Shown here: positions 43,103 to 56,045 of the stretch, in pieces
How positions within the stretch are numbered: position 1 is the stretch's first letter
How the letters are laid out: every line of letters begins with the position of its first letter
Origin: Chloroflexota bacterium
GTDB lineage: Bacteria > Chloroflexota > Dehalococcoidia > Lucifugimonadales > JADFKI01
Length of the DNA stretch: 64,000 nt
Direction of reading: 5' to 3'
Assembly: GCA_009840355.1 (NCBI GenBank)
Contig: VXNZ01000025.1
Span: 1-64,000 of the forward strand
Position numbers and translations under genes: made by a program
The notes under the pieces: generated by a model
What the model saw: only the letters and a program-made list of their open reading frames with translations
What the model was told of the DNA's origin: nothing
Database searches by the model: none

Positions 43103-44470
43103 CTACGCCACCGCGCTGCCCGGATGGCCCGGGCTGCCGTAGAGTGGGCATCCTGCGCACGATGTGCCTGTGGCAGAGTTTCCGCAAGTTTCAGGACTGT
43201 ACGATGGCTGCGGTGTTGTCTGCGCTAGACCTAGCCGCGCCGCCTGTTCGCTCTTGCGGGCTTGCTTCGCGCCTTCGCCGAATAGATCGAGCTTGAGCTG
43301 CCTTGCGCGCGGCGGGCGGTGCCCCGGGAAGCGCAGAAATGGCCAGGCGCGTTTGCGCACTACGCCCATGGTCTGCAAATCGCGCCAGTTGTCGATACTA
43401 TGTGCCGAGCGATTGGCGATAATGCGATCAGCGGATGTGGGGCCTACGCCGGGAACGCGCAACAGCTGTTCCTTGTTCGCAGCGTTTACATCGAGCGGAT
43501 ATGCGTCGAGATTGTGCACAGCGATAGACTGCTTCGGGTCTTCGTCGTGCGGCAGGAAGCCGTCGGCGTCGTAGGCTAGGCGCATTTCGTCGTTTGTAAA
43601 CTTGTACACGCGCTTGAGCCAGTCCGTCTGGTAGAGGCGATGCTCTCGAATCATCGGCGTCGCCGGATGTTCCGCCAATGGCGTATGTCGAATGGGCTGA
43701 AACGGCGCATAATACACGCGCTTGAAGTTCCATTCGCGGTAGAGTTGCTCCATGCGCTGGAAGATGTCCCAATCGGATTCGTTCGCAGCGCCGACGACCA
43801 TTTGCGTGGCTTGCCCGATGGTCACGCCTCTTCCGTTGCCTCTATTGCGGCGCATCAGGTCCGCGACCCACTGCATCGGGTCGAGAATGTCGCGCTGCAT
43901 GTCCTTCATCGTGCTGAGGCGCTGCATCATTTCCACAGTGGGCGTCTCGATGTTGACCGACAACCGTGTGCCTAGCCGGTACGCTTCTTCGACCAGCGGA
44001 TAGTCCGTGCCGGGCATCACTTTCATGTGAATGTAGCCCTTAAAGCCGTGCTTGTTGCGAATGGCGTCCACGACCTTCAGCAGGCGTTCGGTCGTCTTCG
44101 ATCCGCTGCCCGCAATGCCGGAGCTGAGAAATAGTCCATCGACCGTATGCCGGCGGCGCAGTTCTATGAAGGTGTTGGCGAGCTCATCGACCTTGAAGGC
44201 GAAGCGCTTGCGCGGCACCCAGTGGCTGTTCGGGCAATAGAAGCAGTCCATCATGCAGAAGTCGGTGAACATCACGCGCATTAGATTGATGAACTTTCCG
44301 TTGGGCATCGCAGCCTTGTAAACGCCGGGCACCGGATTGCGCCGCGCAGAAGTGTACGGTGCGGGCGTGTTCCTGCCGGGCGCGGTGGGCCGCGAGAGTA
44401 TGTCGTCGCTTGCCATACCGCCGAGAATGTGCATCTTTTCGAATGTGTCCGGAGTGTGCTTGATTAACAT
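43103..44470 (-). CDS. Radical SAM protein with helix-hairpin-helix domain (UDG-linked type)
   Basis: 455 residues. The radical SAM cluster motif Cys72-x3-Cys76-x2-Cys79 lies in MFTDFCMMDCFYCPN. The following HWVPRKRFAFKVDELAN and FLSSGIAGSGSKTTE are characteristic of the family called putative DNA modification/repair radical SAM protein, often linked to a uracil-DNA glycosylase gene. A helix-hairpin-helix unit (VNAANKEQLLRVPGVGPTSA) at about 330-358 suggests DNA or tRNA binding. The last 27 residues hold Cys429, Cys438 and Cys441, a possible extra metal site. No glycosylase gene is next to it here. AGGTGAGG precedes the ATG. Substrate unknown; nucleic acid is likely. Confidence 0.87.
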   Translation of the reverse strand: MLIKHTPDTFEKMHILGGMASDDILSRPTAPGRNTPAPYTSARRNPVPGVYKAAMPNGKFINLMRVMFTDFCMMDCFYCPNSHWVPRKRFAFKVDELANTFIELRRRHTVDGLFLSSGIAGSGSKTTERLLKVVDAIRNKHGFKGYIHMKVMPGTDYPLVEEAYRLGTRLSVNIETPTVEMMQRLSTMKDMQRDILDPMQWVADLMRRNRGNGRGVTIGQATQMVVGAANESDWDIFQRMEQLYREWNFKRVYYAPFQPIRHTPLAEHPATPMIREHRLYQTDWLKRVYKFTNDEMRLAYDADGFLPHDEDPKQSIAVHNLDAYPLDVNAANKEQLLRVPGVGPTSADRIIANRSAHSIDNWRDLQTMGVVRKRAWPFLRFPGHRPPRARQLKLDLFGEGAKQARKSEQAARLGLAQTTPQPSYSPETCGNSATGTSCAGCPLYGSPGHPGSAVA

Positions 44471-44629: not shown

Positions 44630-45577
44630 CTAGAGGATTTGGCGGAGGCGGGTATCCCAGCGGTCGCGGAGCCAGTCGCCGATGAAGTTGAACGATAGGA
44701 CTGTGAGGAAGATAGCGAGACCCGGGAAGAGCGCGACCCACCACGAATTGGAGAGGTAGTTGCGTCCATCGGCGACCATCGCCCCCCAGGCGGCCGTTGG
44801 CGGTGGCACGCCGGCGCCAAGGTAGCCGAGTATGGATTCGGCGAGGATGATGCCGCCTACTTGCAACGTGGTCGCCACGACGAGCGTGTTCATCACGCCG
44901 GGCAGGATGTGCCGGTATAGGATACGGAAGTTCGAGGCGCCCGCGACTTTGGCGAGCGCTACATAGTCGAGCGTCTTCAGTTGCAGCGTCTGCCCGCGTA
45001 CAAGGCGCACGATTTCGGGCCAGCTCGCCAGCGCGAGCACGCCGATGATGACATAGATTTTCTGCCCTAGCACTACGACGATTATCAGCGCGAGCAGCAG
45101 GTATGGAATCGCGGAGGTGATGTCGGTGAGGCGCATTATGACTTCGTCTATGTACTTGCCGAAGTAGCCCGCGACTAAGCCAAGCGTAGCGCCGATAATC
45201 ATGCCGATGGCGATGCTGATTGCCGCAAGTGTCAGCGAGACGCGCGCGCCGTGAATTATGCGCGTCAGCACATCCCTGCCAAGCGGATCCGCGCCGAGAA
45301 TGTACTTGCCGCCCCTGCTGCAATAATCGCGATACGGCTTTTCTTCGCCAACGCACTGCGCGTACCAGAACGGCGCCGCCGTGCGGTCGCGCAAGTCTTG
45401 GCGATTGGGCAGGCTCGGTGAGATGTAGTCGGCGAATATGGCGCAGGCAACGAGCGTGCCAATTATGACGATGGGTATCAGAGGCCAGCGGCGCAGCACA
45501 TACAGCGCGCGCCTCACTGTCGATGGGCGCATGCGCCGCTGCATATCGACGAATGCGGTGCTGGTGCGTGTAGTCAT
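44630..45577 (-). CDS. Orphan DppC-type ABC permease
   Basis: 315 residues, six membrane helices. N-terminal ALYVLRRWPLIPIVIIGTL helix, then ADPLGRDVLTRIIHGARVSL, the EAA-type loop LDYVALAKVAGASNFRILYR and a C-terminal FNFIGDWLRDRWDTRLRQ. It is closely similar to the complete-operon DppC at 55053-56045, including the loop with paired Cys before GADPLGRD (Cys in FWYAQC and DYC). Such permeases need a DppB partner, a binding protein and ATPases, none of which is adjacent; the neighbours are NHL, DUF1501 and DUF1800 genes. The ATG at 45575-45577 lacks a clear ribosome binding site. A terminator-like hairpin lies upstream at 45630-45660, so it may have its own promoter. Confidence 0.88.
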   Translation of the reverse strand: MTTRTSTAFVDMQRRMRPSTVRRALYVLRRWPLIPIVIIGTLVACAIFADYISPSLPNRQDLRDRTAAPFWYAQCVGEEKPYRDYCSRGGKYILGADPLGRDVLTRIIHGARVSLTLAAISIAIGMIIGATLGLVAGYFGKYIDEVIMRLTDITSAIPYLLLALIIVVVLGQKIYVIIGVLALASWPEIVRLVRGQTLQLKTLDYVALAKVAGASNFRILYRHILPGVMNTLVVATTLQVGGIILAESILGYLGAGVPPPTAAWGAMVADGRNYLSNSWWVALFPGLAIFLTVLSFNFIGDWLRDRWDTRLRQIL

Positions 45578-45629
45578 GAAATGGGAACTGACATGGATGC
45601 ACAGGTTAAGCGGGATGGAGTGGCTGCGC

Positions 45630-45660
45630 AAAAGACAAGGGGCGGGTGATTTCCCGCCCC
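45630..45660 (-). terminator. Intrinsic terminator after the NHL gene
   Basis: On the minus strand GGGGCGGG and CCCGCCCC arms around a six-base loop (AAATCA) are followed by TTGTCTTTT. The hairpin is 38 bases past the NHL-protein stop codon. It should end the DUF1800-DUF1501-NHL transcript before the orphan permease. Confidence 0.8.
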
Positions 45661-45698
45661 TCGGATAAGCGTTTGACTGCGATGCCGTGCGAACCGGG

Positions 45699-46697
45699 CT
45701 AGGTCGTGAATAGCACCGGATTGCGCAAGGGCGGCGCAATCTCTTGTTCGTTGAGCGCGTAGGCTTCCTTCTTGTATATCTGGATGCGGTGCGAACCGAA
45801 GTCGCAGACATACAGCTTGCCCTCATCGTCCGTGCGCACGGTTAGCGGCGCGCGGAAGCGCTTGGTGGCTTCTAGGTCAGCCATCTCGCGCAGGCGCAGT
45901 GTAACCGGGTTGGCAAGGATGTACTCGCGCGCCGAGCGCGACAGGTTCGCGTCGCCGATGAACTGCTCGACGAATCTGCCCTCGCTGTCGAAGAGCTGCA
46001 CACGGTCGTTGCCCCAGTCGCAGACATATATGTCGCCGTCAGAATCAACGGTAACGCTGGTCGGGCGGTCGAACTCGCCCTTGTCGCCGCCGGGGGCGCC
46101 GATTTCCATCAGGAACTCGCCGTCGGGCGCGAACTTCTGCACGCGGTCGTTGCGCCAGTCGGCTACATAGATGTCGCCTTCGTCGTCAACGGTCAGGCCC
46201 CAGGGCATGTTCAGCTGCCCCTTGCCATCGCCGAACTCGCCGAACTGCGAGATGAACTCGCCTTCCCGGCTGTAAGTCTGAATGCGGTGATTGAGCGTGT
46301 CGGACAGGACGATGTTGCCGTCGTCGTCGAACGCCAATCCGGTCGGGCGGTTGAACTGCCCCGCGCCGTCGCCCTGCTCGCCCCAGCTATTCAGGAGCGT
46401 GCCTTCTCTGTCCAGCACGAAGACCTTGTTGTGCGCCTCGTCCGAGACATACAGCAGTTCGTCTTCGTCGCAGAGCAAGCCGGAGGGCCACTGGAATGTG
46501 CCGCCGCCGATGACGCCAAGATTGTCGTCCGCCCAGTTGATGCGCCGAATGTCCGTGCCGAGTCCGCCACGGCACAGGATGTAGATGCGGTCTTCCTTGC
46601 CGAACGCGATGTCAACAGCATTGGATGTTACGCGGCGCATGCCGAGCGTCATGTAATAGGGAAAGCCCGACCTGAGCAATGCGTATGGTCTGGCCAT
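45699..46697 (-). CDS. NHL-repeat beta-propeller protein
   Basis: 332 residues made of six NHL blades; repeats such as FDDDGNIVLSDTLNHRIQTY, VDDEGDIYVADWRNDRVQKF, VDSDGDIYVCDWGNDRVQLF and TDDEGKLYVCDFGSHRIQIY are about 46 residues apart and separated by GxFxxP(T/W)G-type turns. No signal peptide; the ATG at 46695-46697 (MARPYALL) follows GCGAGG. NHL propellers bind proteins, RNA or small ligands, or form the catalytic core of lyases, but no catalytic residues are seen. The third gene after DUF1800 and DUF1501 in the leftward run, 147 bases after the latter, in a gap with an 11-base repeat (see findings). Confidence 0.9.
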   Translation of the reverse strand: MARPYALLRSGFPYYMTLGMRRVTSNAVDIAFGKEDRIYILCRGGLGTDIRRINWADDNLGVIGGGTFQWPSGLLCDEDELLYVSDEAHNKVFVLDREGTLLNSWGEQGDGAGQFNRPTGLAFDDDGNIVLSDTLNHRIQTYSREGEFISQFGEFGDGKGQLNMPWGLTVDDEGDIYVADWRNDRVQKFAPDGEFLMEIGAPGGDKGEFDRPTSVTVDSDGDIYVCDWGNDRVQLFDSEGRFVEQFIGDANLSRSAREYILANPVTLRLREMADLEATKRFRAPLTVRTDDEGKLYVCDFGSHRIQIYKKEAYALNEQEIAPPLRNPVLFTT

Positions 46698-46853
46698 AAT
46701 TTGCACCTCGCTGGAGTTTTCAGTTTGTCGGTATTTCAGTTAGTCAATCTTTCAGCATAGTGAATCTACTTTGAGTCGGTCCTGTGCTATGCCGCAGTGG
46801 ATTCCTGCTTTCGTGCCGACGAACCGACTAACTGCCAGACCGACTAACTCTTT

Positions 46854-47993
46854 TTACTTGAATGGGGTAATCTGCTCGTACTTACCGTTCACGATGTCGG
46901 GGGAGTCGATGCCCATCCACTGCTCGAGCATCGTTGCGTAGATGCCGCGGAAGTCGATGGTGTGCTCCAGGTCTTCGCCCTTCGCCCAGTCCTTGGAATC
47001 GAGGGACGGGTACTCGGAGTACAGACCGCCCTTGACCGGCTCGCCGATAATGAACGCGCCGCCGCCCGAACCGTGGTCCGTGCCGCTGCCGTTGTCCTTG
47101 ATGCGTCTGCCGAATTCGGTGAAGACTAGCATCACCACATTGTCCGCCGCGTCGTGCTCGTTCAGGTCATCGAAGAAGTCACGGATTGCGCCGGACAGGT
47201 CTTGCAGCAGTTTCGGATGCGTTGGATTCTCGTTGGCGTGCGTATCGTAGCCGCCGTGGCTGGTGTAGAAGATGCGCGTGCCAAGCCCGGTCGTGTGCAC
47301 CCGTGCGATGTCGCGAAGGCTGTTAGCGATCGCGTTGTCGCCGTATTCTACCGTGGAGCTGTACTGCGCGGGGGCAGCTTTCAGCCTGTCCGCGCCGCGA
47401 AGCACATCCATGCCGGTACGCGACAGGTATTCCATAACGGGACCGGTGCCTATCGCTTGGGCGTACATGTCCTTGAAGATTTGCAGCGCCTGGTCGCGCT
47501 GTTCGTCCTCGCCGATGCCGGTCATCAGACCGTAGCTATCGAGATCGTTGACGGAAGTCACCGGAACGCCCGGCACTGCCATCGCGCGCGGCAGACCGAC
47601 GCCGAAGTTGATGCCTGTAAGTTCATCTTCGCCCTTGGGGTCGAGTTCGCGGAGCGCCTTGCCGACCCAGCCCTCTGTTACGACCTTGTCCGGCTCACAA
47701 GTGTGCCAGATGTCCATTCCTCGGAAGTGGGAGCGGTTGGAGTTCGGGTAGCCGATGCCCTGCACTACCGCAACCTTGCCCTCTTCGAACATTTCCTTGA
47801 TTGGGCGCGCGTTGGGGTTGAAGGCGAGGTCGTCGTTGATAGGCAGCACATCCTCGCGCTCGATCTTGACCAGCTTGCGGTTGTCGTAGTAGGTCGGGCT
47901 GTTGTACGGGATGAGCGTGTGCATGAAGTCGTTTCCGCCGGAGAGCTGCACTACGACCATGACCGGGTCTTTTCCGTTACCATTGGCTGGCAT
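46854..47993 (-). CDS. DUF1501 family protein (alkaline-phosphatase-like fold)
   Basis: 379 residues. The family pattern starts at VMVVVQLSGGNDFMHTLIPY, then LVKIEREDVLPINDDLAFN, VVQGIGYPNSNRSHFRGMDIW and near the end FTEFGRRIKDNGSGTDHG, with HGSGGGAFIIG. These metal-binding-type His/Asp positions follow the alkaline-phosphatase superfamily, related to sulfatases. Most DUF1501 proteins are secreted through a Tat signal; none is visible here since the N-terminus MPANGNGKDP is short and polar. AAGGAGG precedes the ATG. The gene directly follows DUF1800, the usual partner in Planctomycetes and other phyla. Function of the pair is not known. Confidence 0.9.
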   Translation of the reverse strand: MPANGNGKDPVMVVVQLSGGNDFMHTLIPYNSPTYYDNRKLVKIEREDVLPINDDLAFNPNARPIKEMFEEGKVAVVQGIGYPNSNRSHFRGMDIWHTCEPDKVVTEGWVGKALRELDPKGEDELTGINFGVGLPRAMAVPGVPVTSVNDLDSYGLMTGIGEDEQRDQALQIFKDMYAQAIGTGPVMEYLSRTGMDVLRGADRLKAAPAQYSSTVEYGDNAIANSLRDIARVHTTGLGTRIFYTSHGGYDTHANENPTHPKLLQDLSGAIRDFFDDLNEHDAADNVVMLVFTEFGRRIKDNGSGTDHGSGGGAFIIGEPVKGGLYSEYPSLDSKDWAKGEDLEHTIDFRGIYATMLEQWMGIDSPDIVNGKYEQITPFK

Positions 47994-48058
47994 CTCAATG
48001 CCTCCTTATGCTTGCTTGCCTGTAGATGTCAACGAAAAGTGTATCTATGTTCAGTGTA

Positions 48059-49471
48059 CTAGGCGAACTGGTACTCGCGGGTGGACACGATGAGCTGCAG
48101 CATTCTGCCGATGTGCGTGGCGCTGTCATTTGCCTCGCCTTCGGTGTCGAATGCGAGGGGCCCGGCCGCCTCCGCGTAACGCAGCAAGCCTTCGCGGGTT
48201 GCGTCGTCAACGGCAACATGACCGGCGAGTTCGAGCGACATTTCGACGAACTGCTCCGGCGCCAGCTTGCCGTCTTCGCTGCCATCGCCCATACGGGAAA
48301 CGATGTCCTGCACGCCGGGCTTTGACAGGTCATTGAGCTGGTTGACCGCAAAGTTGATGCGCTCGTTAAGCGTGCCGCCGTCAATCCACTCGTGTCCCGT
48401 GTGCCAGCCTTCGACCGTTGGCGGGTTCATCAGCTGTTGCCCCATCACGCCGGTCGCAGCGCTGAGCGCGCCGATATTCTCGTTCGGTTGCGGGAACTTG
48501 TAAGTGCCGACCAGTTTGATAGTGCCAGCGACGAGTTCGGACGGGCTCTTCACCTTCTTGAACATCGCTTCCTTGAAGAACGCTGAGTTGAAGAGCGTCT
48601 GCAGGATGGGGCGAATTTCGCCGTTGTTCTCGAAGTAGGCGCTGATGAGGATTTCCATCGCCTCAGGGTCGCGCGGCGGCTCGAGTTCCCATGCGGGTAC
48701 CTGCGGCTCGTCCGCGACGAAGAAGTTGTAGATGTGGCGGCAGATAAACGCTGCCGTGGCGGGCTGACGCACGATAATGTCGATAATATCCTCGCCGTTG
48801 AAGTTGCCAGTCTCGCCCAAGAAGGTCTTCTCGGATTCGTCGTGGTCTTCGGGAACATAGAGGAACTCGGCGTCGTAGCTGCCGAAGGGATACAGCGGTA
48901 TGGGCTGAGTGAATGTCCAGCCGGTAAATGCGCGAGACGCGTTCTTGATGTCCTCTTCGGAGTAGTGCCCGACGCCCATGGAGAACAGCTCGAGCAATTC
49001 CCTGCCCCAGTTCTCGTTGGGCTCGCCGCGGTGGTTTTCGCAGTTGTCCAGCCAATAGTTCATCGCCGGGTCTTTCGCGAGCTCGAGCAGAATTGTCCGC
49101 ATATCAGTCAAGCCGACTTCGCGGAATGTCTCGATCTGGCGGACGATGGACGGCACGTGCTCGCCCTTGTACCAAGCAGTGGCAAATACGTGGTGCCAGA
49201 GCAGCGCCATCTTCTCCTGAAGTGGCCGCTCCGAGTTGACCATGCGGTAAATCCAGCGTCCGGTGTGCGCGGGCAAAGAGTCCGTGTAGCTCAGTTCGAG
49301 GTTGTATCTCTTCCAGATGTCCTCTTCAAGCTCCGGAAAGCGTTCCGGATTCACGAGGTCATCGACGACCGCCTCGTAGCCCTTCTCTCCCAATTCGTCC
49401 AGCTCCGCCCGTGAGGCGCCGAAACCTGCGCGGCGCATCAGGTGGGCAATCTGGGCAACATCATTAGCCAT
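48059..49471 (-). CDS. DUF1800 family protein
   Basis: 470 residues, helical, starting MANDVAQIAHLMRRAGFGAS. Conserved family stretches: LMRRAGFGASRAELDELGEKG, LLWHHVFATAWYKG, MNYWLDNCENHRGEPNENWG with ELLELFSMGVGHYSEEDI, FTGWTFTQP and, near the C-terminus, PPTVEGWHTGHEWIDGGTL. No signal peptide is seen. AAGGAGGG lies before the ATG. The family is of unknown function and is nearly always next to DUF1501 in an operon. First gene of the leftward run; 65 bases before DUF1501. Its leader contains a TATAAT-like element at 49567-49572 on the minus strand. Confidence 0.9.
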   Translation of the reverse strand: MANDVAQIAHLMRRAGFGASRAELDELGEKGYEAVVDDLVNPERFPELEEDIWKRYNLELSYTDSLPAHTGRWIYRMVNSERPLQEKMALLWHHVFATAWYKGEHVPSIVRQIETFREVGLTDMRTILLELAKDPAMNYWLDNCENHRGEPNENWGRELLELFSMGVGHYSEEDIKNASRAFTGWTFTQPIPLYPFGSYDAEFLYVPEDHDESEKTFLGETGNFNGEDIIDIIVRQPATAAFICRHIYNFFVADEPQVPAWELEPPRDPEAMEILISAYFENNGEIRPILQTLFNSAFFKEAMFKKVKSPSELVAGTIKLVGTYKFPQPNENIGALSAATGVMGQQLMNPPTVEGWHTGHEWIDGGTLNERINFAVNQLNDLSKPGVQDIVSRMGDGSEDGKLAPEQFVEMSLELAGHVAVDDATREGLLRYAEAAGPLAFDTEGEANDSATHIGRMLQLIVSTREYQFA

Positions 49472-49849: not shown

Positions 49850-51562
49850 CTGAGGAGGCTTGTCCTCCGATTGTCGCATTGCTGGTCGGATTTCAGGGTG
49901 CCGCGCTCGTACTTGCGCCGACGGTGCTGAACGTGGCGATCGCGGTTCGATCTTCGGGGCTGGGCGACACCCACTTAACATGGAGCGTCTTCGCGGCAAT
50001 GTTGATATGTGCGGCAATCACGGCGTTGCAAGCGTTCCGACTACAGCGATTCGGCCGGGCACCTCGTGCTCGCATGGCCCGCTGCAATGTTCATTGCCGT
50101 CATGGTGTCTTCAATCTCTGCGGCTGGGCCCGGAATGTTCGCGACACTGATGGTGGTTTGCAGCTTAATTCAGGTCGCGCTCGCTTGGTGGTTGCCAATC
50201 CTACGGCGAATAATCACGCCGGTCGTCTCCGGCACGGTGACAATCCTGATCGCTGTCAGCGTGCTGCCCATAGCCTTCGATACCATTCAGGATCTACCCA
50301 GCAATGCTCCATCTATGGCAGGGCCGGCGATTGCGGGAATGACCTTGCTGGTATCGGTGATTGTGACTTTGCGCGTGAGCGGGCGCTGGCGCCTGGTAGC
50401 GCCGTTCATCAGCATCCTTAGCATCCTTGCCGGATGCGCTGTCGCTGTCGCATTCGGCGTTGTCGAAACAGACCGAATAGCCAAAGCCAGTTGGTTTGGC
50501 ATCCCCGAGATGCCCGCGCTTAGTTTCGAACTCACGCCGGGCAAGGAGTTCTGGGCTCTCTTGCCTTCGTTCGAGATTCTGACCTTAGTATTGGGTATCA
50601 AGACTATCAGCGACGGTGTGGTGATCCAGCAAGGCTCCCGGCAACTGCCACGAGCGATCGACTTCCGTCGGGTACAGGGCATGGTCAGCGTCAATGGCAT
50701 TGGATTGGGATGTTGCTCGCCGGCATCGCCGGCACGCTGCCCACAATGGCAAACGCCTCATACAGTCTCTACCTGATTAGCCTCACCGGAGTCGCCGCCC
50801 GTCGTGTCGGCATTGTGGTGGGGATTGTCATTGTGGCGCTGGCATTCTTCTCGAAGTTTACTGCCATCTTGCTAACTGTCCCCGGTCCCGTGTTGGGCGC
50901 TTACCTAATTCTCGCCATGGGAATGCTCTTCGTCAGCGGCTTGGCAGACTATCTTACGCGACGGACTCGACTCCAGGCGTATATTGGTGGTCGCGCTCGC
51001 GAGCGCACTGGGCTTGGGCATCCAAGGCCATCCCGTCACGCGGGACATTTTTGGTGATGAACTAGGCGCGTTACTCGGTAGTGGAGTTACCGTCGGGGCT
51101 ATCGTTGCCATCGGCATGACGCTACTGTTCGAAGCGACGAGTACACGCCACTCGCGCCTACAGACTACACTGAGCATGACTTCGCTCCCAGACATTGATG
51201 AATTTCTTACCCAGTTGGCATCTAGGCTGGGATGGAACGAAACCTCCACATTACGGTTGCGGTCCGCCGGCGAAGAAACGCTCGCCAGCCTACAGCTGCA
51301 AGAGGACGACTCTGGCGGCTCGGAGCAAAGGCGCCTAGTCATCAACGCAAGGCCGCAAGGAACGATGCTGGAGTTGGAATTCATCGCCACAATGCGTCAG
51401 GAGAACATCGAAGATCAGTTGGCTTATCTTGCCGACGAAGAGGCAGTGCCAACAGTCGATGATCTTTCGCTCAGGCTATTGCGATACCATTCCTCCGCTG
51501 TACGACATCAGAAATTCCATGGCGTGGACATCGTTACGGTGCAGGTCGAGGGCAGATTATAA
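49850..51562 (+). pseudogene. NCS2 (xanthine/uracil permease-type) transporter, frameshifted, with C-terminal regulatory domain
   Basis: Four in-order open segments in alternating frames read as one membrane protein: LLVGFQGAALVLAPTVLNVA (from about 49870), then SISAAGPGMFATLMVVCSLI up to about 50700, then GIAGTLPTMANASYSLYLIS to about 50960, then HPVTRDIFGDELGALLGSG and a soluble end. Each junction needs a frame change (near 50050, 50700 and 50970), and no good start codon exists since an in-frame stop lies at 49846-49848. The middle resembles solute-carrier-23/NCS2 permeases. The soluble C-terminus (about 51190-51562) with WNETSTLRLRSAGEETLASL looks like an anti-sigma-type HATPase domain. 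Decayed gene, or sequencing errors in the assembly. Confidence 0.72.
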
Positions 51563-51828: not shown

Positions 51829-51920
51829 ATGACCTGAATTCTGGAATGGGTGCAATGTTTCACAAATTTCTTAGAAGTTAGGGACATTTGGACACCTATA
51901 AAAAATTGGAGGGACGAGAA

Positions 51921-53942
51921 ATGACACAAGGCAAGAATGGAAGGTTCTTGTGGCTACTGCCTTTGGCGGCGCTGGTCGCTTTTGCCGCGATTGCTTGCGG
52001 TGGCGCAGCGCCCGCGCCCGAGGCACCCGAGCAGCAGCCTGCCGCACAGGCCCCAGCTCCTGCGGCTCCAGCGCAAACAGCGCCGACCGCAGCGCCTGCG
52101 CCGGCACAAGAAGCCCCCGCAGCAGCATCCGGCGAAGGCGCCACTCTAACAGTGGTGCTGGACAATGTCGGGTCTCCCCTTTATCGGAACGAGAAGGCGA
52201 CATGGCCCGACAATATGATGAACTACTACTACGGCTTCCAAGAACTGCTGGTTACATGGGAGCCTAACACTGCCGGCGACGGCGGCAAGGGCAAGGTGTC
52301 CGACGAGACCTGCGAAGCGCCTATGCTGGCGCTGAGCTGGGAGTACGACCTTCCTCCGAACTTCGACGACCCCGAAAATCAGGGGTCGGTCTCGGTTAAG
52401 TTGCGCGAAGGCGTGGACTTCTATGTTGCCTCGGGCAGGCACTCGGAATTCACCGCCGAGGACGCGGCATGGTCGTTCAACGACGCCGGTTCCAACAACC
52501 CCGCCGCCACGCACTCCAATGCGGGCGAGGCGGGCGACTGGTTCAAGCTCTGGGAAGCGACCGACAAGTACACGCTGAAGGGCACCTTCCGCAACTACAT
52601 CGCCGACTGGCTTAACGGCGGTGGCGCAGGCATCAGCAGCATGTGCGGCGATGCTATTGGCGTCGTGTCGAAGACGCTCTACGACGAAATCGGCGACGAA
52701 ATCTTGACGACCCCGCACGGCACGGGTCCTTTCTATGTGCAGGAGTGGCGTCCCAACGAGCTTATCGAGGCGACTTCGCGCGTTGACCACTGGAACAACA
52801 ACCCGAACTTCGCGTTCTTGAAGTTGCGGCAGGCAAGCGAGGCGGCACAGCGCACCGCTCTGCTCCAGACCGGGCAGGCAGACATATCCATGGTGTCTAT
52901 CCAGGATGTAGCGGACTTGCAGAACGAAGGCTTCAAGTTCCACGACGGGCTGAACCAGATTCTCGGTCAGTTCATCTACATGGCGGGCAACTACTGGTCG
53001 TACAAAGACCCGCAGACAGGCGACCCTGTAGAACTTCGCGAGGGCTTTTACCCTGACGATGAGCATCCATGGATTGGCGACCCGCGTATAGAGTGCGCGG
53101 ACGCCGACCGCTCGAACCCATCAGGTGCACTCGGCTCCGGCTGCGACGCCACCGGCTTCGACTACCAGGACACCGACAAGTTCTCTTACGAGACGGAGCA
53201 CATGATGAAGGCGAAAGCCTTCCGCGAGGCTCTGATATATGCGATAGACCGCGACCTCATCGGCGAGACGATTGTTTCCGGTTACGGTGGCGCAATCTAC
53301 GGCACGGGACATGGCGGCGGCATCGCCTTCCACCAGACGCATCCCGAGTATAAGGACAAGTGGGCAGCTCAGTTCGACCCGACAATCGCACAGCAAAAGC
53401 TGGCGGAGTCGGGTGTGGAGCCCGGATTCGAATTCGAGTACTACTGTCCGGCGGGCAACGGCACATCCATCGAGGTCTGCCAGGCTGTCGTAGGCATGTG
53501 GGAAGAGCATCTTGGCTTGAAGCCTTACATCGACAACACGGCATACTCGTCGCGTCGCCCGACAATGGTCGGACGCTCAATCAAGTCCGTGTGGCAGACG
53601 AGCTGGGGTCCTAACAGCGCGCAGGCGAAAGACCCGGGCGGAACCATTCCGGTCTGCTGCTTGTGGCCCATCGCTTCGGCGGGCGGCTATAACGCGGGCA
53701 TCGAGGACAACAACTTCTACAACGACTTCGACATCACTCGCATTCAGGATAAAGGCTCCGACGAGAACCTTTCTACGCGCGAGGAAATCATGGACCGCTG
53801 GTTCGACTTGAAGACCGGCACCGGCATCGTGGAAGTGCCGACTCTCATCGGCATGAACCCCGACACCGTGCAGGACTGGGACCTCAAGCCGTGGCGCTTG
53901 ACCAACAGCTTCGATACTGTGGTCTATCAGCCGCCTCAGTAG
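51921..53942 (+). CDS. ABC transporter substrate-binding lipoprotein, family 5 (first set)
   Basis: 673 residues. A signal sequence ends in the lipobox FAAIAC-Gly, followed by an Ala/Pro/Gln-rich linker to about residue 75 typical of anchored receptors. The mature part has the SBP_bac_5 pattern: VSVKLREGVDFYVASGRHSEF, a TAEDAAWSF-like motif, TTPHGTGPFYVQEWRP, and EALIYAIDRDLIGE. It is longer than usual (about 520-550) with several Cys scattered at about 135, 240, 390 and 510-560, suggesting disulfides. The ATG at 51921 has GGAGGG seven bases upstream. DppB and DppC follow on the same strand. Peptide or another amphipathic solute; no ATPase gene in the window. Confidence 0.9.
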   Translation: MTQGKNGRFLWLLPLAALVAFAAIACGGAAPAPEAPEQQPAAQAPAPAAPAQTAPTAAPAPAQEAPAAASGEGATLTVVLDNVGSPLYRNEKATWPDNMMNYYYGFQELLVTWEPNTAGDGGKGKVSDETCEAPMLALSWEYDLPPNFDDPENQGSVSVKLREGVDFYVASGRHSEFTAEDAAWSFNDAGSNNPAATHSNAGEAGDWFKLWEATDKYTLKGTFRNYIADWLNGGGAGISSMCGDAIGVVSKTLYDEIGDEILTTPHGTGPFYVQEWRPNELIEATSRVDHWNNNPNFAFLKLRQASEAAQRTALLQTGQADISMVSIQDVADLQNEGFKFHDGLNQILGQFIYMAGNYWSYKDPQTGDPVELREGFYPDDEHPWIGDPRIECADADRSNPSGALGSGCDATGFDYQDTDKFSYETEHMMKAKAFREALIYAIDRDLIGETIVSGYGGAIYGTGHGGGIAFHQTHPEYKDKWAAQFDPTIAQQKLAESGVEPGFEFEYYCPAGNGTSIEVCQAVVGMWEEHLGLKPYIDNTAYSSRRPTMVGRSIKSVWQTSWGPNSAQAKDPGGTIPVCCLWPIASAGGYNAGIEDNNFYNDFDITRIQDKGSDENLSTREEIMDRWFDLKTGTGIVEVPTLIGMNPDTVQDWDLKPWRLTNSFDTVVYQPPQ

Positions 53943-53957
53943 TCAAAGGCAATTGAA

Positions 53958-53988
53958 GCGCCCATTCCGGACTAATCCGGGTGGGCGC
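53958..53988 (+). terminator. Hairpin between the SBP and DppB genes
   Basis: GCGCCCATTCCGGA (53958-53971) pairs with TCCGGGTGGGCGC (53976-53988) apart from a bulge, followed by GCTTTCC. It lies 15 bases after the SBP stop. In SBP operons such hairpins commonly cause partial termination or protect the abundant SBP message so that permeases are made at lower level. Confidence 0.65.
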
Positions 53989-54088
53989 GCTTTCCACATC
54001 ATATCGACCTAACTCGCGCCGCTCATAAGACCACAAGGCACGGCGGCGCTTATTTACTCAAACCCCAGAGTAAGGACACTATGCCCCA

Positions 54089-55033
54089 ATGAAGACCTTC
54101 GTGCTTCGCAGGCTGTTCTTTACGATACTGTCCGTGATTGCGGCGACGCTGATAGTGTTCAGCATGTCGCGGCTTCAGGGCGATCCGCGCTATCTCTTTC
54201 TGGCGTCCGGCTACACCACGCAAGAGCAGTGGGACGCCTGGGGCAGAGAGTTTGGCTTGGACAAGCCGCTGGTCATGCAGTACTTCATCTGGCTGGGTAA
54301 AGCGTTGACCGGAGACTTCGGCAAGTCCTTGAAGTCAGGCTACGAATCCACGGAGATGCTGAGGATATTCGCGCCTGCGAGCTTGCAGTTAGGGCTTGCG
54401 GCGTGGGTGTTCGTGCTGATTACGGGGGTGCCGCTAGGCGTGCTCTCCGCGGTTAAACGCGGCTCTTTATGGGATCTGGTCGGAAGAACCTTCGCGGTGT
54501 TCGGGCAGGCGCTCCCCCCATTCTGGCTGGGCATTATGCTAATTCTCATATTCGCCGTTCAATTAGAATGGCTGCCGCCCGGAACACGTGGGGACGACGA
54601 CGAAACATTGCTATCACGCTTGAGATACTTCGTGTTGCCCTCGATAACATTGGGCTGGCTTGCCTCCGCCGGACTAATGCGCCTAGTGCGCTCGTCCATG
54701 CTGGAAGTGTTGGACTCCGAGTTTGTAAAGTTGGCACGCGCCAAGGGCGTGGGCAACGCCACGCTAATCTGGAAGCATGCGCTGAAGAACTCGCTTATTC
54801 CGCCTCTCACATTCTCGGCGCTAATAATGGCGGCATTTATCGCAGGCACAGTCGTAACCGAAACGGTCTTCGCCTGGCCCGGCCTCGGCTTCATGACGGT
54901 GCAGGCAATCATCAACAATGACTTCCCGGTGATGACCACAGCGGTGATGATGTTCACTATCCTATATGTGATGACCGTCTTCATCGTGGATATACTCTAC
55001 GCATTCATCGACCCGAGAATTCGGTACTCCTAG
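54089..55033 (+). CDS. DppB-type ABC permease (first set)
   Basis: 314 residues, six membrane helices. MKTFVLRRLFFTILSVIAAT starts the first helix, then FSMSRLQGDPRYLF, a GDFGKSLKSG motif, the EAA-type loop SEFVKLARAKGVGNATLIWK and the final DILYAFIDPRIRYS. Together with DppC it forms the membrane channel for the binding protein upstream. A three-codon open frame (ATG 54081, stop TGA overlapping this ATG) lies between the ribosome binding site TAAGGAC and this start, so initiation here may depend on reinitiation. DppC follows after 19 bases. Confident assignment to the oligopeptide-permease family. Confidence 0.92.
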   Translation: MKTFVLRRLFFTILSVIAATLIVFSMSRLQGDPRYLFLASGYTTQEQWDAWGREFGLDKPLVMQYFIWLGKALTGDFGKSLKSGYESTEMLRIFAPASLQLGLAAWVFVLITGVPLGVLSAVKRGSLWDLVGRTFAVFGQALPPFWLGIMLILIFAVQLEWLPPGTRGDDDETLLSRLRYFVLPSITLGWLASAGLMRLVRSSMLEVLDSEFVKLARAKGVGNATLIWKHALKNSLIPPLTFSALIMAAFIAGTVVTETVFAWPGLGFMTVQAIINNDFPVMTTAVMMFTILYVMTVFIVDILYAFIDPRIRYS

Positions 55034-55052
55034 ACTAGGAGCGGCAAATACG

Positions 55053-56045
55053 ATGGCACAAGCAGCGGCGGTAAACCTGGAGAGCATCGAGCGCGCCAAT
55101 CAGCAGACCTTGATAAGCAAGGTTCTGTATGTGTTGCGTCGCTGGCCGGTGTTCCCCATCTTCATCATCGTAACTCTGGTGGTTTCCGCCGTCTTTGCGC
55201 CTATCATCGCGCCGAACGAACCTATCAAGCAGGACTTACGCGCCAAAACGGACGCGCCCTTCTGGTATGAGACTTGCGGCACGAAGCAGAATCCGATAAA
55301 CAACACTGAGGTTCCCGAGGTGCCGTGGTTGGACAAGTGCCGTCAGACCGGCGAGAACTTCTACTTGCTGGGCGCGGACGCGCTCGGTCGCGGGCTGCTG
55401 ACGCGCATCATATATGGCGCGCGTGTGTCGCTCGTGCTCGCCGCGGTCGCAATTATCGTGGGAACTCTCGTAGGCACGGTTCTGGGCTTGTCTGCCGGCT
55501 ATTTCGGCGGCGTCCTCGACGAGCTGATAATGCGCCTGACGGATGTCGCGACGGCTATACCGTACCTGCTGCTCGCGCTGATTATCGTGATTGTGCTTGG
55601 GCAGAAAGTGCTAATCAACGGCGATGTGATAGTGTTGGTACTGGCATTGGCGAGCTGGCCCGGCATCGTGCGCCTCGTGCGCGGGCAGACGCTTCAGCTC
55701 AAGAGCCTGGACTATGTGGCATTAGCGCAGATTGCGGGCGCGTCCACATTCCGCATAATGTACCGCCATATCCTGCCGGGCGTAACAAATACCATCGTAG
55801 TGGCGACAACGCTTCAGGTGGGCAGCATCATTTTGGCGGAGTCTATACTCAGCTTCCTGGGCGCAGGCGTTCCGCCGCCGACGCCGACATGGGGTTCAAT
55901 GGTCGCTGACGGACGCGACTACCTCAGCTCTGCCTGGTGGGTGGCGTTCTTCCCCGGCATGGCGATATTCCTGACCGTGCTGGCGTTCAACTTCATCGGC
56001 GACTGGCTGCGCGACCGATGGGACCCGCGGCTGCGGCAGCTGTAA
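55053..56045 (+). CDS. DppC-type ABC permease (first set)
   Basis: 330 residues. The first helix at about 25-45 (VLRRWPVFPIFIIVTLVVSA), a periplasmic segment with TCGTKQNP ... KCRQTG holding two Cys, the motif LGADALGRGLLTRIIYGARV, the EAA-type loop LDYVALAQIAGASTFRIMYR and FIGDWLRDRWDPRLRQL at the end. It pairs with the DppB gene 19 bases upstream; AGGAG precedes the ATG. The orphan permease at 44630-45577 is a close paralogue. The Cys-bearing insert lengthens the usual loop by about 20 residues. Confidence 0.92.
   Translation: MAQAAAVNLESIERANQQTLISKVLYVLRRWPVFPIFIIVTLVVSAVFAPIIAPNEPIKQDLRAKTDAPFWYETCGTKQNPINNTEVPEVPWLDKCRQTGENFYLLGADALGRGLLTRIIYGARVSLVLAAVAIIVGTLVGTVLGLSAGYFGGVLDELIMRLTDVATAIPYLLLALIIVIVLGQKVLINGDVIVLVLALASWPGIVRLVRGQTLQLKSLDYVALAQIAGASTFRIMYRHILPGVTNTIVVATTLQVGSIILAESILSFLGAGVPPPTPTWGSMVADGRDYLSSAWWVAFFPGMAIFLTVLAFNFIGDWLRDRWDPRLRQL

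Follow-up and report, generated by a model that had tools for sequence, protein, structure and literature searches.

The window analysed here is a stretch of 64,000 nucleotides from a marine-type Chloroflexota bacterium (contig VXNZ01000025.1), part of a 3.28 Mb genome that is 97% complete and whose closest named relatives are Dehalococcoidia of the SAR202 type. Computational analysis of a leftward run of genes in this window identifies a three-gene module, in which a DUF1800 protein, a DUF1501 protein with the fold of the alkaline-phosphatase (AP) superfamily and an NHL-repeat beta-propeller are encoded in that order, all three without export signals. The module recurs in many diverged copies, its genes have been duplicated together, and its DUF1800 proteins fall into a clade of their own. 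In the favoured reading, the three genes encode a cytoplasmic module of the phospho- or sulfo-ester-hydrolase type, the products of which probably form a complex; copied as a whole, the module has given rise to numerous diverged paralogues.

A recurrent three-gene unit

The unit comprises the following features.

48059..49471, minus strand: DUF1800 protein, first gene of the module, 470 amino acids, leaderless (Pfam PF08811, E 5.9e-94)
46854..47993, minus strand: DUF1501 protein with an AP-superfamily fold, 379 amino acids, leaderless (Pfam PF07394, E 1.4e-22)
45699..46697, minus strand: NHL beta-propeller of a module-specific subfamily, 332 amino acids, leaderless (Pfam NHL, E 7.2e-39)
45636..45663, minus strand: intrinsic-terminator-like hairpin at the end of the three-gene unit, 11 pairs, nine of them GC, with a T-rich tail (a pattern match only)

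The DUF1800 protein scores 316 bits, against a gathering score of 26.1 for PF08811, and spans positions 1-418 of the 419 in the profile. The DUF1501 protein scores 80.9 bits (gathering score 27), its best stretch covering only positions 229-381 of the 390 in PF07394. Four NHL repeats are found in the propeller, at 130 bits against a cut-off of 20, and its matches among PDB profiles are NHL propellers. The initial annotation had described a run of four leftward genes, the first three of which share a single terminator. All four genes are where they were placed once two starts are corrected, that of the NHL gene to 46697 and that of a permease gene beyond it to 45577, and a hairpin was indeed found between these two genes, at 45663-45636.

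The genome contains 14 DUF1800 genes, every one of which adjoins an NHL gene of the same subfamily. When the proteins of the genome were searched with the window NHL protein, 14 genes were recovered at 152-771 bits, the next NHL protein scoring 85 bits, and all 14 adjoin a DUF1800 gene. DUF1501 is present at nine of the 14 loci, one of which (L061) was counted after an over-long DUF1800 open reading frame (ORF) had been trimmed. The distance matrices of the paralogues agree, both for DUF1800 and NHL (Mantel r 0.75, 14 loci) and for DUF1800 and DUF1501 (Mantel r 0.69, nine loci; p <=0.0003 in each case), as is expected of a unit that was duplicated together. In the window genes, the ratio of non-synonymous to synonymous substitution rates (dN/dS) is 0.04-0.13.

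The arrangement is also kept among relatives. Eighty related loci from named genomes were chosen by similarity; 77 of these are readable, the remaining three (L129, L138 and L148) being cut by contig ends, and L098 was tallied by its first DUF1800 gene. The order DUF1800, DUF1501, NHL on a single strand holds nearly everywhere, with an NHL gene downstream of DUF1800 at all 77 readable loci and DUF1501 at about 74. In five near-complete relatives, NHL lies at most 6 kb downstream of about 50 of the 54 DUF1800 genes. DUF1800 itself was found in 24 of the 40 genomes of the relatives search, with 11-13 copies in each of four relatives from the same genus. Outside the three genes, the most frequently recurring family in the flanks reaches 17 of the 80 loci. 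Recurrence at 14 loci of one genome and at 77 out of 77 readable loci elsewhere is an association beyond chance, and the unusual unit that the initial annotation had pointed out, propeller included, is borne out and proves to be conserved.

Individual copies show further features. At one locus (L064:4117-5742), a sodium:solute-symporter-like gene, named by eye, lies inside the module between DUF1501 and NHL, which is unusual, while at three others, from Caldilineaceae and Dehalococcoidia (L096, L098 and L135), DUF1800 genes or whole modules stand in tandem. In genome G004, two DUF1800 genes (C1:15045-16451 and C4:723703-725109) have identical scores, as do their NHL partners, which reflects either duplication in the recent past or an artefact of the assembly. 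Near the end of the propeller, at about residues 248-270 of the window protein, the segment GDA.LS..A...N......R is conserved among the module NHL proteins. Where the remaining NHL proteins of the genome match, the match stops before or near this segment, which is a possible docking element.

Folds, remote relatives and proposed function

An AlphaFold2 model of the DUF1501 protein (pLDDT 82) matches sulfatases, LtaS and other AP-superfamily enzymes at a Foldseek probability of 1.00. In VIA, nucleotide pyrophosphatase/phosphodiesterases (NPP) and PafA come first (Z 18.2, root-mean-square deviation 3.2, 237 residues), with NPP, PafA and sulfatases together at Z 15-18, and the phosphatase-like character first ascribed to this protein agrees with the model. 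Although DUF1501 is only about 10% identical to these enzymes, it has conserved Asp, Ser, His and Glu residues: D22, S88, H89, D250, H252, E293, D306 and H307 are invariant, bar one unread position, in the module DUF1501s and in 30 outgroup DUF1501s. Judged from the model, the most probable identity of DUF1501 is that of an AP-superfamily hydrolase or transferase that depends on metal and has phospho- or sulfo-ester chemistry, and the completeness of its invariant set suggests that it is active.

The AlphaFold2 model of DUF1800 (pLDDT 88, pTM 0.89) is almost wholly helical, as had been anticipated. No convincing match to its fold was found in the PDB (best Foldseek E 0.9), and the best result in VIA, at Z 7.1, concerns a short helical part near the C-terminus that resembles calmodulin-like proteins and does not rise over background. 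By sequence, its only PDB match is a weak N-terminal one to a phycobilisome-linker-type protein (E 7e-4). Residues R14, N152-E153-N154, R157, E158, E161 and K215 are invariant across exported and leaderless forms of the family.

A remote relative of DUF1800 emerges from profile comparison. When 99 DUF1800 proteins were aligned by HHalign with 16 PSCyt2-PSD1 proteins of Poribacteria, DUF1800 and PSD1 (DUF1553) matched at a probability of 94 (E 1.8e-7), with the similarity lying in the middle and C-terminal part. Taken by halves, the C-terminal match has an E of 1.2e-8, and the N-terminal match is marginal (E 0.005), in the expected register. The best of 30 column shuffles gave an E of 0.007 and the best of 26 unrelated families 0.04. 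A narrower alignment reached a probability of only 72, against 94 for the diverse sequences. On these profiles, DUF1800 is a remote homologue of the core of the Planctomycetes-type PSD1.

PSCyt and PSD genes have been described previously (PMC5615132), and in Planctomycetes, WD40 genes are often neighbours of DUF1501 (PMC5587647). The pairing of PSCyt2-PSD1 with DUF1501 in Poribacteria and the Planctomycetes-Verrucomicrobia-Chlamydiae group resembles the module not only in the remote homology of PSD1 and DUF1800 but also in the beta-propeller neighbour reported for Planctomycetes and in gene context, DUF1501 lying beside the PSD1 gene at 10 of the 16 CxxCH-bearing Poribacteria loci (L184-L199). 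PSD1 proteins differ in being mostly larger, in carrying CxxCH (16 of the 16 examined) and in having N-termini that by eye are mostly signal-peptide-like, whereas the module has neither motif nor signal; CxxCH occurs in none of the DUF1800, DUF1501 and NHL alignments. A set of helical core, DUF1501 and propeller may therefore exist in two forms, one exported and with cytochrome domains, the other leaderless and without them.

In the mechanism proposed for the module, DUF1501 would perform phospho- or sulfo-ester chemistry in the cytoplasm. DUF1800 would be its helical core or partner, a heme-free relative of PSD1/PSCyt2 with invariant polar residues of its own, and the NHL propeller would serve as a scaffold or as the part that recognises the substrate or ligand. 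Module paralogues would differ in substrate. The module and the exported DUF1800-DUF1501 pairs would share ancestry, the module being without signals for twin-arginine translocation (Tat) and having the propeller, and it would have been amplified, up to 14 copies per genome, in SAR202-type Dehalococcoidia, perhaps for diverse organic compounds taken up. Computation establishes the module, its gene order, the missing signals, the clade, the DUF1501 fold, the homology to PSD1 and the joint duplication, and from these we infer a physical complex, an enzymatic activity and a role in the use of organic matter.

Several points weigh against this account. The DUF1501 model is of low confidence at residues ~155-184, and the residues of its invariant set, taken from alignment, are at most candidates for the metal sites and nucleophile of AP enzymes. 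The flanks of the 80 loci offer weak functional hints, in the form of families named by eye as short-chain dehydrogenase/reductase-like (17/80), enolase-superfamily-like (13/80) and GMC-oxidoreductase-like (12/80). The sample of modules, being picked by similarity, favours one clade, and intermediates between exported and leaderless forms may be missed. Finally, DUF1501 is not obligatory: it is missing at five of the 14 loci of the genome and at four of the 77 readable relatives, and the constant pair is DUF1800 with NHL.

The constancy of that pair, at 14 of 14 and 77 of 77 loci, is what would be seen if DUF1800 and NHL were the working core, with DUF1800 catalytic in the manner of PSD1/PSCyt2 and DUF1501 an accessory dropped by some paralogous modules. 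The polar residues that DUF1800 keeps in both exported and leaderless forms point the same way, as does the fusion of its relative PSD1 to CxxCH cytochrome domains in all 16 proteins examined. However, DUF1800 has no known chemistry, PDB fold match or heme motif, and the complete invariant set of DUF1501 speaks for an activity there. A DUF1800-NHL core is a possible, but not a likely, explanation.

Export signals and the clade of leaderless proteins

N-termini were scored for Tat-like signals by a simple strict rule, rather than a trained predictor, and by this rule none is present in 97 DUF1800, 83 DUF1501 and 91 NHL proteins of the module (0 of 271 in total). Neither DUF1800 nor DUF1501 of the module thus carries the twin-arginine signal that at least one partner must bear for a pair to count as Tat-exported. 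Among Chloroflexota pairs outside the module, sampled phylum-wide at 30 loci, 12 DUF1800 and 16 DUF1501 proteins are Tat-like. Each of the three module genes has a strong Shine-Dalgarno sequence at its start, immediately before the domain (AAGGAGGG for DUF1800, AAGGAGG for DUF1501 and GAGGTG for NHL), and therefore no signal peptide is masked by a wrong start. Concealed signals were ruled out by these positions together with a scan from each domain upstream to the previous stop, and the lack of export signals noted at the outset persists after the starts have been corrected. Loss of the Tat system was likewise rejected as the cause of the leaderless state, TatC being present in six of the six genomes checked.

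When 99 DUF1800 proteins were placed in a tree, those of the module fell into a single group (Shimodaira-Hasegawa-like approximate likelihood ratio test 100, stem 1.09), and a module-type NHL gene occurs at none of the 20 outgroup loci that have several kb of flank. The module DUF1800s of Poribacteria, Latescibacteria, Entotheonella and Caldilineaceae branch from within those of Dehalococcoidia, a pattern which suggests that the unit has been transferred. A module-type DUF1800 is also found in a record titled Alphaproteobacteria (L148), through either transfer or mis-binning.

Operons that combine DUF1800 with a DUF1501 bearing a Tat signal have been described, an example being a chitin-synthase-linked pair (PMC5122149). 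The exported Tat-type pairs of Chloroflexota and Proteobacteria share with the module the two families, the order DUF1800 then DUF1501 and the invariant residues. Unlike them, the module proteins are leaderless, accompanied by NHL, multi-copy and in a separate clade.

The module proteins might nevertheless be exported, either along a route that has escaped recognition or as hitch-hikers with some other protein of the Tat or Sec pathway. At about 10 of the 30 outgroup loci (L205, L211, L213, L214, L215 and L220 among them), a leaderless DUF1800 adjoins a DUF1501 whose N-terminus is extended and often Tat-like, which is compatible with hitch-hiking or co-export of a preformed complex, and TatC is available. 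In the module, however, all three proteins are without signals, and therefore no partner can carry the others out; with starts that are backed by Shine-Dalgarno sequences as well, export is improbable.

The neighbouring permease and the setting of the module

Two further features, both outside the module, bear on its limits.

44630..45577, minus strand: DppC-like ATP-binding cassette (ABC) permease, an orphan duplicate, 315 amino acids (BPD_transp_1, E 5.6e-29)
51888..56045, plus strand: genes for substrate-binding protein (SBP), DppB and DppC of an ordinary peptide-type ABC transporter (Pfam/NCBIfam and tree)

The mechanical ORF of the permease, which runs to 45826, would overlap the NHL gene. 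The initial annotation had seen this permease as a component of the system and as a near copy of the operon DppC at 55053, with which it might exchange. It is a duplicate of that gene, and the SBP-DppB-DppC genes are its likely source; the identity behind the term near copy is 69%. Exchange does not fit these identities or the tree, in which the orphan copies of the window genome and of the L073 relative group at 100/100. These two are 78% identical, with a dN/dS of 0.11 indicating purifying selection, and therefore the duplication is older than the split of the two species.

The permease was rejected as a member of the module: the terminator separates the two, only one of the 80 relatives (L073) has the permease directly after the module, and the gene duplicates the operon DppC. 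None of the partners of a Dpp/Opp importer (DppB, SBP or ATPases) occurs with it in the leftward run, the nearby SBP, DppB and DppC genes being on the opposite strand. A peptide ABC permease is found near five of the 14 module loci of the genome; a general tie to such transporters was not supported, permease-type matches occurring at no more than three related loci besides L073. The notion of a single transport-linked system made up of the four genes, in which the orphan DppC would sit in the membrane, has in its favour the same-strand permease 3' of the module in the window and in L073 and the peptide-type ABC operons close to a few of the genome's other modules (L056, L058, L063 and L065), yet is largely refuted already by the terminator, the single relative and the missing cognate DppB and ATPase, and is very improbable.

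Elsewhere in the window, positions 43103-44470 (minus strand) encode a radical SAM protein of the TIGR03916 type, putatively concerned with DNA modification or repair, whose 305 bits fall just under the cut-off of 343.5. Overlapping ORFs in different frames at 49879-51562 (plus strand) appear by eye to be a broken nucleobase-permease-like gene.

The literature searched, which did not take in most subscription journals, yielded no account of the three genes as a module, of their missing signals or of the DUF1800-PSD1 homology. We take COG3391, COG4102 and COG5267 to be the NHL-type, DUF1501 and DUF1800 families. These three are listed together in the top 50 of the abundant, correlated COGs of SAR202 and are given there as uncharacterised, and the main text names no gene module, localisation or homology for them (Saw et al. 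2020; PMC6946804). The joint abundance of the families in SAR202 has thus probably been noted already, though not as a module.

The 14 modules amount to some 45 kb of coding DNA, in a 3.3 Mb genome, for proteins of unknown function. The module recurs in SAR202-type Chloroflexota, and its genes in the window are under purifying selection. These bacteria are thought to be important in the turnover of resistant dissolved organic carbon. The well-known relatives of the module proteins are exported, yet the multi-copy module apparently acts inside the cell, and this points to an overlooked enzyme system. Seen as a single module, the three genes make up a defined set for co-expression, and the leaderless form may purify more easily than exported forms. 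Through the link to PSD1/PSCyt2 and DUF1501, DUF1800 and the Planctomycetes-type PSD proteins, hitherto separate unknowns, become a single question that can be tested. More speculatively, and with the balance of probability against it, DUF1800 and PSD1/PSCyt2 could make up a single superfamily, so far unrecognised, whose members are catalytic cores acting jointly with DUF1501 and a beta-propeller. In that case, the leaderless form of the SAR202 type would be an enzyme system of the cytoplasm, radiated into at least a dozen specialised copies in each genome. It would add one more catabolic expansion to those of the enolases and flavin monooxygenases, and would have spread to other phyla, several members of which are known sponge symbionts.

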